Shown one piece after another: positions 1 to 6,747 of a DNA stretch of 21,744 nt. This DNA comes from a virus. Location of the stretch: positions 1-21,744 of IMG/VR virus record IMGVR_UViG_3300042519_001035; one strand, given 5' to 3'. A program made the translations under genes and the position numbers. The notes under the pieces were generated by a model, which had not been told where the DNA came from, made no database searches, and saw only the letters and a program-made list of their open reading frames with translations. Each line of letters starts with the position of its first letter. Within the stretch, counting starts at the first letter, position 1.

Positions 1-483
1 ATTGAACACTATGAATATCCTACATTAAAATTTCTTAAAGAAACTATTGATAATGATAGTGATTCTTATATTTTGTATTTTCATGTTAAAGGTGCTAGCA
101 AAAATAACGTTAAACCAATACACGACTGGCGGTTTCTATTAGAGTACTATAATATAGTAAACTATAAAAAATGTATAGAGCTATTAGACACCGGTTATTG
201 TACTGTTGGTATATTGTATAGCGAAGGAATGATTAGTCAATGGCCTCATTATAGTGGAAACTTTTGGTGGGCTAACTCTAATCATATTAAAAAATTACCC
301 AAGCTACCTCACAAAAATGAATCTATTATAGGGGAAGTTAGTACAATTAGTAAAATGATGTATATATCTGATTACTTTAGATATGACCATGAAGCTTGGA
401 TAGGATGCATTCAACCATGGAATTATGTATCATTGTTTCAGGGTGACATTGAAAGAGAAGTTATTAGGATTACAAATACATGA
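1..483 (+). CDS. Glycosyltransferase-like protein, C-terminal part (5' end outside window)
   Basis: The reading frame is open from base 1, so this is the last 160 residues of a longer protein. The visible part contains a YFHVKG segment, an aromatic DWRFLLEYY stretch and the block HYSGNFWWANSNHIKKLP. That combination recurs in uncharacterised glycosyltransferase-like proteins of phages and algae; I assign it from memory of the pattern, not from a search. It ends in an ATGA overlap with the downstream 2OG oxygenase, so the two are translationally coupled. A role in modifying glycans or virion components is inference. The catalytic N-terminal part is not in the window. Confidence 0.5.
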   Translation: MEHYEYPTLKFLKETIDNDSDSYILYFHVKGASKNNVKPIHDWRFLLEYYNIVNYKKCIELLDTGYCTVGILYSEGMISQWPHYSGNFWWANSNHIKKLPKLPHKNESIIGEVSTISKMMYISDYFRYDHEAWIGCIQPWNYVSLFQGDIEREVIRITNT

Positions 484-1196
484 CAGAATCAAACATACCC
501 TTTTATCATTTGATAATTGATAATTTCTTTGAACAAGAAATGGCAGAAAAATTGTCAGACGAATTTATTGATTATAATGATGAACGTTGGTTTTATTACA
601 ACAATGTGATTGAAAATAAAAAAACGTTGAATGATTGGAGATTTTTACCTAAACATGTATATCAAGCATTTACTCAGTTTTGCTCAGATGAGTTTGTTAA
701 AAAACTACAGGATATGACTGGTATAGAAAAATTGTATCCTGATTATGGATTGCATGGTGGTGGCTGTCATATGCATGGTAGAAACGGCAAACTTAATATA
801 CATAGAGATTATTCTGTACACCCTAAATTAGGATTAGAACGCAAGTTAAATCTTATTGTATATCTTTCTAAAGATTGGGATAACTTATGGGGTGGTGGCT
901 TAGAATTATGGTCACATGATACTAAAAACAATCAACCAAAAGAAAAAGTAAAAGAAGTAGAATGTGTTTATAATCGTGCTGTACTTTTTGACACCACACA
1001 AAATTCTTGGCATGGGTTACCTGAACCGTTGCGTTGCCCAGAAAGTGTATACAGAAAAAGCCTAGCCATGTATTATATGACTAATCCTAGTGTAAATGTT
1101 GATCCAAGACAACGTGCATTATTTGCACCTACAAAAAATCAAAAAAATGATATTGAAGTGAAAAAATTCATAGAAGAAAGAACTAAGCTATCTTAA
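480..1196 (+). CDS. 2OG-Fe(II) oxygenase (prolyl-4-hydroxylase-like)
   Basis: A 238-residue protein with the facial triad of Fe(II)/2-oxoglutarate oxygenases: H108-x-D110 in NIHRDYSVH and H178 in NSWHGLPEP. A following arginine (R187 or R192, in RCPESVYRKS) fits the 2-oxoglutarate carboxylate contact. The core strand KLNLIVYLSKDW followed by WGGGLELW is typical of the P4H-like branch. Members hydroxylate protein side chains, sugars or bases; the substrate is unknown here. The ATG overlaps the stop of the glycosyltransferase-like gene (ATGA), suggesting joint expression and perhaps a shared modification pathway (inference). Many T4-like phages carry several such oxygenases, and a second candidate lies at 4210. 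Confidence 0.85.
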   Translation: MTESNIPFYHLIIDNFFEQEMAEKLSDEFIDYNDERWFYYNNVIENKKTLNDWRFLPKHVYQAFTQFCSDEFVKKLQDMTGIEKLYPDYGLHGGGCHMHGRNGKLNIHRDYSVHPKLGLERKLNLIVYLSKDWDNLWGGGLELWSHDTKNNQPKEKVKEVECVYNRAVLFDTTQNSWHGLPEPLRCPESVYRKSLAMYYMTNPSVNVDPRQRALFAPTKNQKNDIEVKKFIEERTKLS

Positions 1197-2259: not shown

Positions 2260-2604
2260 GAATCCGGTTACTACTTTCCTTAAAGTAGCGTTTGAATAGC
2301 GATAGAGTTCCGGTGGCAGAAAACCGTTAGCGTGAGGAATGGAAGTAACGCAGTTCCACTACCCTCGCAGGCTCTGATAGGCAGAATCTCAACTGCACAC
2401 AGACTTTGAATAAATGGAGATGGACAGAGTAACTGCTCAATTAAGGGCTTGTGTGGAAACAAGTAGCTTATACTAATTCAATATAGATGTGTATGATAAT
2501 ACGGTTGTTGTACACATCTATGTTATACTGAGTTTTGAGAGCCACATCGCCTGGATACTTCCTTTGGTAACAAAGCACTAGGTCCTGCAACCGTGGCTCT
2601 CCCT
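2260..2604 (+). ncRNA. Structured non-coding region between tRNA-Glu and tRNA-Tyr
   Basis: 345 nt without a credible gene but with many helices. They are CTACTTT/AAAGTAG (2271-2277/2282-2288); an 11-bp ATAGATGTGTA/TACACATCTAT stem (2483-2493/2511-2521); and a compact domain at 2537-2601. In that domain a 9-bp GAGAGCCAC/GTGGCTCTC stem closes CCTGG/CTAGG and then CTTTG-GTAA-CAAAG, a GNRA-type loop. The domain ends three bases before tRNA-Tyr. The stretch appears richer in G and C than flanking coding DNA, as structured RNA often is in AT-rich genomes. It matches no RNA family I recognise: I see no tmRNA, RNase P or group I intron signatures. Confidence 0.5.
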
Positions 2605-2689
2605 GGAGATGAAGCATCAATGGTGATGCAGTGGACTGTAAATCCGCCGCTTTATAGCACGACTGGTTCGATCCCAGTAATCTCCACCA
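2605..2689 (+). tRNA. tRNA-Tyr (GUA)
   Basis: Class II tRNA with a long variable arm (CCGC..GCACG region), anticodon loop CTGTAAA (GTA), T-arm ACTGG-TTCGATC-CCAGT, discriminator A and CCA. The last acceptor pair is a G-A mismatch; the other six pair. Confidence 0.92.
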
Positions 2690-2762
2690 AGAATATAGGA
2701 GAGTCGCTGGGCAGGCGTACTCTTAAACGACCTAGGCCAAAGGGGTGTCCTGTTTCATATTT
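2690..2762 (+). other. 73-nt spacer with weak stem-loops between tRNA-Tyr and tRNA-Asp
   Basis: GC-richer than most spacers here. AGAGT/ACTCT and GTCG/CGAC helices are possible around 2701-2731. It is not a cloverleaf and has no reading frame of note. It could be a processing spacer or a degenerate RNA gene. Confidence 0.3.
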
Positions 2763-3065: not shown

Positions 3066-3154
3066 GGAGAGTTGGGTGAGTGGTTAAACCAGCAGATTGC
3101 TAATCTGTCACTGTGAATAACGGTGCGTGGGTTCGAATCCCACACTCTCCGCCA
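3066..3154 (+). tRNA. tRNA-Ser (GCU)
   Basis: Class II with a long variable arm, acceptor GGAGAGT/ACTCTCC, discriminator G, anticodon stem-loop GCAGA-TTGCTAA-TCTGT (GCT), T-arm GTGGG-TTCGAAT-CCCAC, CCA. The stop codon of the antisense 60-aa gene starts two bases past the CCA. Confidence 0.95.
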
Positions 3155-3155
3155 A

Positions 3156-3338
3156 TCATTTCTTTTTTACTCGGTCTATAATTTCATTGCGAAACATAGG
3201 ATTTTCAATCATCATTCGAGCAAGTAAACCAGTGAGGTAACCCCGTTCATATAATAACTGTTCGTGGCTATCTTTGTAATTACGTTTGTTTTGACGCAAC
3301 AACTTTTCAACAACATCAATATAGTTTTGTAGTTCCAT
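3156..3338 (-). CDS. Small phage protein, 60 aa, antisense to the tRNA array
   Basis: The product starts MELQNYIDVVEKLLRQNKR and ends DRVKKK. It is helical and charged, with a YERGYLTGLLARMM segment. It has the look of the many small T4-like phage ORFs of unknown role; I do not recognise a domain. I chose the ATG at 3338 over an upstream alternative (3389) because CAGT separates it from a TAAATA late motif at 3343-3348, the same layout as at four other genes. There is no Shine-Dalgarno. It lies tail-to-tail with tRNA-Ser. Confidence 0.65.
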   Translation of the reverse strand: MELQNYIDVVEKLLRQNKRNYKDSHEQLLYERGYLTGLLARMMIENPMFRNEIIDRVKKK

Positions 3339-3342
3339 ACTG

Positions 3343-3348
3343 TATTTA
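3343..3348 (-). promoter_or_regulatory. Late promoter motif (AATAAATA) for 60-aa gene
   Basis: The minus-strand motif AATAAATA ends four bases before the ATG at 3338. The spacing predicts a leaderless transcript. Confidence 0.45.
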
Positions 3349-3640
3349 TTAAAGAACGTTCCGAGTGTCTTCGGATAGTGTGGTCCCACACGATGAGAAG
3401 TACTGTGACAAGTACGGGCGGTTCTGGTCTAGCCTGACCAGCGTTGGCAATACGAGAACGGTCCCTGTCGGGAAGCGGGTGGAAGGTACATATGGGGGAT
3501 ATGATAGCGTCATATCTTCCAGTACTATAATTACCGCCGGGGGATGCAGAGCATATTGAAGCATATTGATATTCGGTCGTAGCGGTTCATTGAACCTTAG
3601 TATATACCGAGAGTGTTAATGTGTTTCAATATGCTTTTTA
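3345..3640 (+). ncRNA. Large structured RNA candidate upstream of tRNA-Cys
   Basis: About 296 nt, GC-rich against its surroundings. GGCGGT (3417-3422) pairs with ACCGCC (3533-3538) and closes a multibranch domain. Inside it are CTGGTC/GACCAG (3424-3429/3436-3441), TCCC/GGGA, and a TGGAA/TTCCA plus GATATGA-TAGCG-TCATATC arm (3480-3521). After it comes a second domain. There AAGCATATTGA (3559-3569) pairs with TCAATATGCTT (3626-3636), enclosing TCGGT/ACCGA and GGTTC-ATT-GAACC, and runs into TTTTTAT like an intrinsic terminator. AGCATATTGA is duplicated in tandem (3550-3569), giving two alternative partners. A 64-codon open frame from GTG 3365 shows no ribosome site and is probably incidental. 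No known RNA family is recognised. Confidence 0.55.
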
Positions 3641-3641
3641 T

Positions 3642-3719
3642 GCACAGGTGGCAGAGTGGCCAAATGCAACGGATTGCAAATCCGTAAAACCGTGAGTTCA
3701 AATCTCACCCTGTGTTCCA
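3642..3719 (+). tRNA. tRNA-Cys (GCA)
   Basis: Acceptor GCACAGG/CCTGTGT, discriminator T (U73 is the cysteine identity base), anticodon stem-loop ACGGA-TTGCAAA-TCCGT (GCA), T-loop TTCAAAT, CCA. It starts right after the T-tract of the upstream structured RNA. Confidence 0.95.
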
Positions 3720-5979: not shown

Positions 5980-6747
5980 ATGGCACACCCTCAACAATTT
6001 CAATATATACAAAAACTTAAACTACTATATCCTACTCAGTTCTTTAATAGCAAAGTACTTGAAGTAGGTAGTCTTAACATTAATGGTTCAATACGAATCT
6101 TTTTTAATCATTGTGATTATTTAGGAATTGATGTTGGCCCGGGTAATGATGTTGACTTAGTATGTGAAGGTCAAACATTAGATCATCCAGACAGTATATA
6201 TGATACCGTTGGTAGCTGTGAATGTTTTGAGCATAATCCTTATTGGGTAGAAACATTCGTTAACATGCATCGTATGGCTAAACCAAATGGTCTAGTGTTT
6301 ATGACATGTGCTACTACTGGTAGACCAGAACACGGTACTACTCGTACTACACCACAAGATAGTCCTCTTACTACAGGTATAGGATGGGACTATTATAGAA
6401 ATTTAACTGAAGAAGATTTCAGAAAAGAATTAGACATAGATGATATGTTTAGTACATACAAATTTGAAGTGGGCGCACCTCACGCAGATTTGTATTTTTA
6501 TGGTATTAAAAAAATAAAGGTAAATATGTCACAAAGCAGAGCAAGATATACAAGTGAAGAAGCCGCAAACATGGTTGGTAGTCGTTTTGATTTAGTTCTT
6601 ATCGCCTCACAACGTGTAAGAGAATTAAAACGCGGACATCGTTCACTACTTAATACTAAAGCAGGACCAATGGTAACTGCATTAGAAGAAATTGAAGCAG
6701 GACTAGTCGGACGAGAATATCTTAAACGTATTAGAAAGAATTTGTAA
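5980..6747 (+). CDS. Methyltransferase fused to an RNA polymerase omega (RpoZ-like) domain
   Basis: Residues 1-180 are a class I SAM methyltransferase: motif I VLEVGSLNINGS (26-37), acidic end of strand 2 at D51 (YLGIDVG), DTVGSCECFEHN (75-86) and KPNGLVFMTCAT. Residues 183-255 match the omega subunit of bacterial RNA polymerase: YTSEEAANMVGSRFDLVLIA, then SQRVRELKRG and VTALEEIEAGLV, closely parallel to E. coli RpoZ (IGNRFDLVLVAARRARQM, then TVIALREIEEGL). Omega supports assembly of the beta' subunit. The junction is an A7 run (6508-6514). With one A fewer, the methyltransferase would end in TAA, followed by AGGTAAAT and ATG 6526, a normal gene start. So the read-through fusion may be real, programmed, or a sequence error. 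Confidence 0.88.
   Translation: MAHPQQFQYIQKLKLLYPTQFFNSKVLEVGSLNINGSIRIFFNHCDYLGIDVGPGNDVDLVCEGQTLDHPDSIYDTVGSCECFEHNPYWVETFVNMHRMAKPNGLVFMTCATTGRPEHGTTRTTPQDSPLTTGIGWDYYRNLTEEDFRKELDIDDMFSTYKFEVGAPHADLYFYGIKKIKVNMSQSRARYTSEEAANMVGSRFDLVLIASQRVRELKRGHRSLLNTKAGPMVTALEEIEAGLVGREYLKRIRKNL
6508..6528 (+). other. A7 run at the methyltransferase-omega junction with a possible internal start
   Basis: Seven A residues precede TAAAGGTAAATATG. In the current frame there is no stop. In the +1 frame the TAA directly after the A run closes the methyltransferase. The AGG lies six bases before ATG 6526, which would start a 73-aa free omega-like protein. Confidence 0.6.

Follow-up and report, generated by a model that had tools for sequence, protein, structure and literature searches.

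What is encoded in the GC-rich island that separates the tRNA-Ser and tRNA-Cys genes of a 21.7-kb virus record, where does the product begin and end, and what might it do? The whole of this record (21,744 nucleotides, IMG/VR; hereafter the window) was analysed. It carries 14 tRNAs on the + strand according to ARAGORN, and a protein encoded in its middle part matched 19 related IMG/VR loci, one of them within a 348.7-kb contig. One extra tRNA at 2605–2686 (+) was missed by ARAGORN and scored 36 bits with Rfam; its anticodon, read by eye, is GTA (Tyr). The island has 53–58% G+C against about 30–40% in its surroundings, and a first-pass annotation had assigned it, from 3345 to 3640, to one large structured RNA of two domains, of no recognized family, lying within a tRNA transcript. 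The features of this region are as follows.

3066–3154, + strand: tRNA-Ser(GCT), the upstream neighbour of the RNA (ARAGORN).
3156–3341, − strand: small divergent ORF, between tRNA-Ser and the RNA in the window.
3354–3553, + strand: core noncoding RNA (model R1, 200 nt), GAACGUUCC...GAUGCAGAGCA, delimited by a covariance model, homologues and sharp ends.
3551–3634, + strand: RNA-B, a separate hairpin with the AGCATATTGA duplicate and a U tract after it; an optional neighbour.
3642–3719, + strand: tRNA-Cys(GCA), the downstream neighbour (ARAGORN and Rfam).

The R1 covariance model matched positions 3354–3553 with 209 bits (E 1e-59), the window sequence being among those used to build the model. 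In relatives the ends of this RNA are sharp and fall at a tRNA CCA or at a tRNA start. At locus L003 the RNA begins directly after the CCA of tRNA-Ser. Loci L009 and L014 lack the long hairpin, and there tRNA-Cys follows immediately on the end of the RNA. Because of the ends seen at these three loci, we define the RNA as 3354–3553 and treat 3551–3634 as another module. The structured island from 3345 to 3640 is therefore real but joins two units, of which only the first is the RNA proper.

The strand 3345–3640 was calculated to fold at −112.8 kcal/mol, compared with −82.7 kcal/mol for shuffled sequences (z = −5.9). Most of this extreme value is due to the 3′ hairpin (about −40 kcal/mol), and the core RNA alone gave z = −2.1. 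The evidence for the core RNA is covariation rather than folding stability. The proposal that no protein gene here is credible held up: a search for protein families among the ORFs crossing the island gave no Pfam match, and no frame is open throughout the 67 homologues, the best being open in 19 of them, with lengths of 0, 1 and 2 modulo 3 mixed. Neither ARAGORN nor Rfam identified the core RNA as a tRNA or tmRNA, and the Rfam search of the window assigned it to no family even at E≤10, in keeping with an unclassified RNA.

To describe the fold, 67 sequences from the extracted copies were aligned, and the structure was drawn from these same sequences. The R1 model has 10 helices including two pseudoknots: the hairpins P1–P5, a long-range helix P6 (GUCCCU/RGGGAY), P7, P8, PK1 (the P2 loop with GGGU) and PK2 (the P4 loop with GGU). 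The 5′ domain consists of the five hairpins P1–P5 and the two probable pseudoknots, and the 3′ domain of P6–P8, with an internal loop and a tail that hardly vary. The parts of the core RNA in the window are listed here.

3360–3375, + strand: hairpin P1, UCCGA-GUGUCU-UCGGA; 5/5 pairs changed on both sides, 96% paired, 2 pairs passing the phylogeny-aware test.
3378–3391, + strand: hairpin P2, loop GGUCCC (GACCC in most relatives); 3/4 pairs changed on both sides, 2 passing.
3400–3415, + strand: hairpin P3, GUACU-GUGACA-AGUAC; 4/5 pairs changed on both sides, 3 passing.
3416–3422, + strand: linker GGGCGGU, pairing with the P2 loop (PK1) and the P4 loop (PK2); suggestive only.
3424–3441, + strand: hairpin P4, CUGGU-CUAGCCUG-ACCAG, longer in some relatives; 4/5 pairs changed on both sides, 2 passing.
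3442–3454, + strand: hairpin P5, CGU-UGGCAAU-ACG; 100% paired, with a C-G/U-A exchange, 1 pair passing.
3461–3466, + strand: 5′ strand of P6, GUCCCU, with its partner GGGGAU at 3540–3545; 99.8% paired, UA to AU in 5/67, whole-matrix E about 9.
3475–3485, + strand: GCGG of P7 and the internal-loop strand GUGGAAG (opposite UAUAAUUA, 3526–3533); near-invariant in 67 sequences.
3486–3525, + strand: P8, a stem with an exchangeable tip cassette; 3/4 basal pairs changed on both sides, 3 passing.
3526–3553, + strand: 3′ strand UAUAAUUACCGCCGGGGGAUGCAGAGCA (P7, P6 and the conserved tail); near-invariant.

Across the alignment, 97.9% of the 2,876 cells of the model are paired, and both-sided changes occur in 23 pairs (380 cells). 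None of 500 shuffles matched the covariation of the model, and sliding by 1–3 columns reduced the paired fraction to 38–52%. Because the structure had been drawn from the same sequences, we added a phylogeny-aware simulation in which columns evolved independently along a FastTree tree. Among about 20,100 column pairs, 14 reached E<0.05; 13 of these are pairs of the model (in P1, P2, P3, P4, P5 and P8) and the remaining one lies inside the P8 tip. Compensatory changes are thus abundant in the homologues. The first-pass annotation had set two refuting conditions, a protein-family match and a lack of compensatory changes, and both checks favoured it. G-U pairs, which would not be tolerated by a structure in DNA, are also common among the cells of the model and favour an RNA made from this strand.

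For P6, P7 and both pseudoknots, conservation is too high for proof by covariation. The P7 pairs are invariant in the alignment and hence fall outside covariation testing. PK1 and PK2 are 98.9% and 99.5% paired, with an A-U to G-C change in four sequences and a whole-matrix E of about 10. P6 and PK1 show few independent changes (whole-matrix E about 9–10), and the covariation in these two pairings is suggestive. The conserved fold differs from the closed multibranch domain that folding of the single sequence had indicated, with P4, P6, P7 and the pseudoknots all departing from the minimum free energy structure. The possibility that the UGAUG/UGAUG loop of P8 forms a K-turn was considered and given up, as relatives such as L022 and L027 have Watson–Crick pairs in its place.

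The setting of the RNA was quantified over 108 distinct contexts, counting tRNAs within 500 nt. All 378 tRNAs lie on the same strand as the RNA and none on the opposite strand. A tRNA ends 2–7 nt before the conserved CG of the RNA in 60 of the 108 contexts (exactly 3 nt in 42), and a tRNA starts 3–19 nt after the AGAGC tail in 34. The abutting upstream tRNAs are varied (Tyr, Ser, Asp, Cys, Pro, Asn, Glu, Arg and Met). Together with the covariation, this strict same-strand packing strongly supports the view that a structured RNA resides within a tRNA transcript. The tight abutment to tRNA ends means that tRNA processing could release the RNA, and we consider it likely that it would be transcribed inside a polycistronic tRNA transcript, with the maturation enzymes of the flanking tRNAs generating its ends. 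Copies without a preceding tRNA would instead depend on read-through from the preceding gene or, at a few loci, on a sigma-70 promoter of their own. Among 37 copies that abut no tRNA, three have a candidate for such a promoter (10–11 of 12 matches within 9–33 nt), where about one is expected, and so it is not a general feature. A further conserved noncoding element of ~160 nt, TTTTTATAGTCAAGCATCGATAAAGGTATCG...GGGCCTAACTG...AGGTCCTG, was noted 3′ of the core RNA in about ten contexts (L023 from about 5120, L065, L071 and others).

To establish how widespread the RNA is, exact scans were made with core motifs. Two motifs each gave at least 119 viral stretches, and a third scan added further ones. 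The core RNA is present in more than 100 IMG/VR contigs; at least 154 copies were extracted, with 103 distinct among the matches listed. When R1 was run over whole records, all 19 contained a match, 18 of them as a single copy, and two copies were present only in the 524-kb record. The carriers have T4-like terminases; one shares 48–50% identity with its counterparts in PA5oct-like and Phosso jumbo phages, and another is 54–55% identical to cyanophage terminases. BLASTN with a consensus-like element (E≤0.1) gave no match among INPHARED phages or PLSDB plasmids, and R1 gave none at E≤10 in nine isolated phages (T4, PA5oct, Phosso, S-CREM1, XbC2, Kaldavass, LPCS28, S-SCSM2R and XaC1), a search in which strict filters may lose weak matches. 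An exact gapped pattern did not recover the core RNA from 84,980 bacterial and archaeal genomes; its sole prokaryotic match, in Micromonospora (L191), is GC-rich, is not matched by R1 and is a different sequence. No earlier description was found in the literature searched, the coverage of which is incomplete, so that one may exist.

The similarity of the RNAs does not track that of their carriers. RNA identity is 77–96% while carrier terminase identity drops to 32–35%, and RNAs that are 81–84% identical occur between carriers with terminases down to this level. For example, G002 and G015 have 82% identical terminases and 81% identical RNAs, and for G001 and G012 the values are 35% and 84%, respectively. 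Such a mismatch would mean strong constraint, horizontal exchange, or both. Within the RNA, 33 types of P8 tip are combined with 27 types of 5′ domain, and identical tips are found on 5′ domains that are merely 36–45% alike. The P8 tip is thus swapped as a cassette between divergent copies. At the loci examined, these tips were found nowhere beyond this RNA, the sole outside matches lying in a copy truncated by the end of its contig.

The core RNA is therefore very probably a working RNA, the fold of which is kept while one hairpin tip is swapped. The covariation, the placement, the copy number, the divergence of the carriers and the exchange of tips together lead us to favour, with some confidence, a gene of large T4-like phages for a noncoding RNA that acts in trans. 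As to how such an RNA might act, the invariant core may dock one conserved host or phage partner (the translation, tRNA-handling or polymerase machinery), either as an RNP scaffold or as a decoy, with the swapped P8 tip giving a host- or target-specific contact; this is a tentative proposal, less likely than not to be right. Such a swapped contact is what would be expected of a component in a phage–host conflict, and our best guess at the function is an RNP scaffold that bears a variable tip. A bolder version, which we regard as rather unlikely, would see in the RNA either a ribozyme or the core of a phage RNP, its working centre invariant and its P8 tip a recombining specificity cassette, spread horizontally among giant T4-like phages within a noncoding-RNA toolkit that is borne on tRNA arrays and serves translation take-over or counter-defence.

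The same cassette exchange could be the mark of an arms race if the RNA were a decoy or inhibitor directed against host defences such as tRNA-targeting nucleases. Location in tRNA arrays, the discrete nature of the exchange and the spread over divergent phages are all consistent with this, but no tRNA model matches over the RNA, and the idea overlaps the functional part of the scaffold or decoy explanation; as a separate reading we think it doubtful.

Comparison with known RNAs provided analogues of the core RNA, not relatives. GOLLD (RF02032) is a structured noncoding RNA of phage tRNA islands, often longer than 800 nt and of unknown function (PMC12286853). Of the known RNAs it is the most similar in kind. 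The core RNA too sits in phage tRNA islands, but no common sequence or fold was found: RF02032 misses the core RNA, R1 misses GOLLD, and the GOLLD conserved-region model (threshold 150 bits) did not match the core RNA. GOLLD is instead a separate RNA in five of 30 carrier records (189–204 bits), 0.65–3.5 kb downstream of the core RNA and on the same strand, with none in the other 25. The GOLLD RNAs above the Rfam cut-off are at L221 930–1394, G006 141221–141685, G009 362284–362748, G020 65824–66288 and G024 311–775. ROOL (RF03087), a phage and prophage RNA found near tRNA islands, also of unknown function (PMC12286853), has 574 model positions compared with the ~200 nt of the core RNA. Its model gave no match in the window (E≤10) or in 19 carrier records, the latter run lacking a working positive control.

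The RNAs C and D of T4 (species 1 and 2) are similarly packed: they are small stable RNAs of the T4 tRNA cluster that lie within 1–6 nt of a tRNA and of one another. The carriers of the core RNA have T4-like terminases; the two differ from it in length, at 139 and 119 nt. To our knowledge, the functions of both are unknown. R1 found nothing in the T4 genome, and with filters off gave chance-level scraps of at most 3.8 bits. RNA D was considered as a distant homologue and rejected on these chance-level scores; its vague P1-P2-GAUG likeness is a lead only. The core RNA adds a well-supported family to this short list of phage tRNA-island RNAs and shows that a noncoding RNA of phages can evolve through the exchange of modules. 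Its length of 200 nt brings it within reach of structure determination and genetics, and its spread over phages with terminases about one-third identical, with a near-invariant core and swapped tips, makes the role of such RNAs directly testable.

The size of the RNA, its probable pseudoknots, its near-invariant internal loop and junction residues and its residence among tRNA precursors would also suit a ribozyme, either self-cleaving or acting on tRNA precursors, perhaps as a permuted or divergent form of a known one. tmRNA, RNase P RNA, group I and II introns and known ribozymes have a similar size range and complexity, but none had an Rfam match in the window at E≤10, and the ribozyme, RNase P and intron models gave none over ten other loci at E≤1. 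These results make a ribozyme improbable. A faint letter likeness to twister and group I has no model support and, in the case of twister, looks like chance.

What follows the RNA bears on whether it could be a cis-regulatory leader or riboswitch for the next gene. Its near-invariant unpaired positions are aptamer-like, several copies precede an ORF, and a ribosome-binding site and start codon closely follow at L022, L031, L033, L125 and L143. There is, on the other hand, no conserved class of downstream gene, the neighbours being a mixture of about 16 tRNA isotypes, other structured RNAs and unrelated ORFs; no common expression platform was seen, and many copies have tRNAs on both sides. We consider a leader quite improbable as a general reading, though a cis role may apply at some loci. 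A selfish RNA-encoding insertion, hitch-hiking in tRNA arrays and conserved for its own spread, would fit the varied neighbours and mosaic distribution but is very improbable given the single copy in nearly all records, the lack of a constant endonuclease or transposase neighbour (in an unsystematic ORF annotation) and of any target-site signature noticed.

The trans-acting RNA that we favour is often not followed by RNA-B: of 100 distinct contexts compared downstream, 18 have this hairpin, with a few related ones besides. The supposed second domain is accordingly a separate, optional module, absent after most copies. The arms of RNA-B are 99.5% paired over 12 sequences, with two pairs changed on both sides (UA to AU and AU to GC), and a conserved outer stem surrounds exchangeable inner parts. 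The tandem AGCATATTGA, previously read as two competing partners in a switch, is genuinely duplicated in the window. The two copies, however, pair one after the other within a single arm of the same hairpin. Most homologues have GCACATTAA, ATACATTAA or ACACATTCG as their second copy; since most relatives differ in this way, a competing-partner switch is not conserved, and the switch-like reading found no support. The terminator scan, which is blind to a loop this large, made no call at the U tract after RNA-B, and tRNAs or other RNAs follow within a few bases. At L003 (15564–16573) and L017 (15551–16559), ~1 kb that is absent from the window lies between RNA-B and tRNA-Cys and may be an inserted gene.

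Elsewhere in the window, a structured element of ~65–70 nt at 2535–2604 (+), GAGCCACATCGCCTGG...AGGTCCTGCAACCGTGGCTC, lies just 5′ of a tRNA, and the same element is found 5′ of the core RNA at L050, L160 and L164. A possible additional small RNA (GGAGAGTCGCTGGGCAGGCGTACTC...) is located at 2699–2760 (+), 5′ of tRNA-Asp. The protein encoded at 480–1196 (+) resembles 2OG-Fe(II) oxygenases (PF13640) and is labelled DNA endonuclease V in PHROGs, so that its annotations conflict. The protein encoded at 5980–6747 (+) has a SAM-methyltransferase part at its N-terminus and an omega-like RNA_pol_Rpb6 domain (PF01192, E 1e-10) at its C-terminus, a fusion that is unusual in phage.
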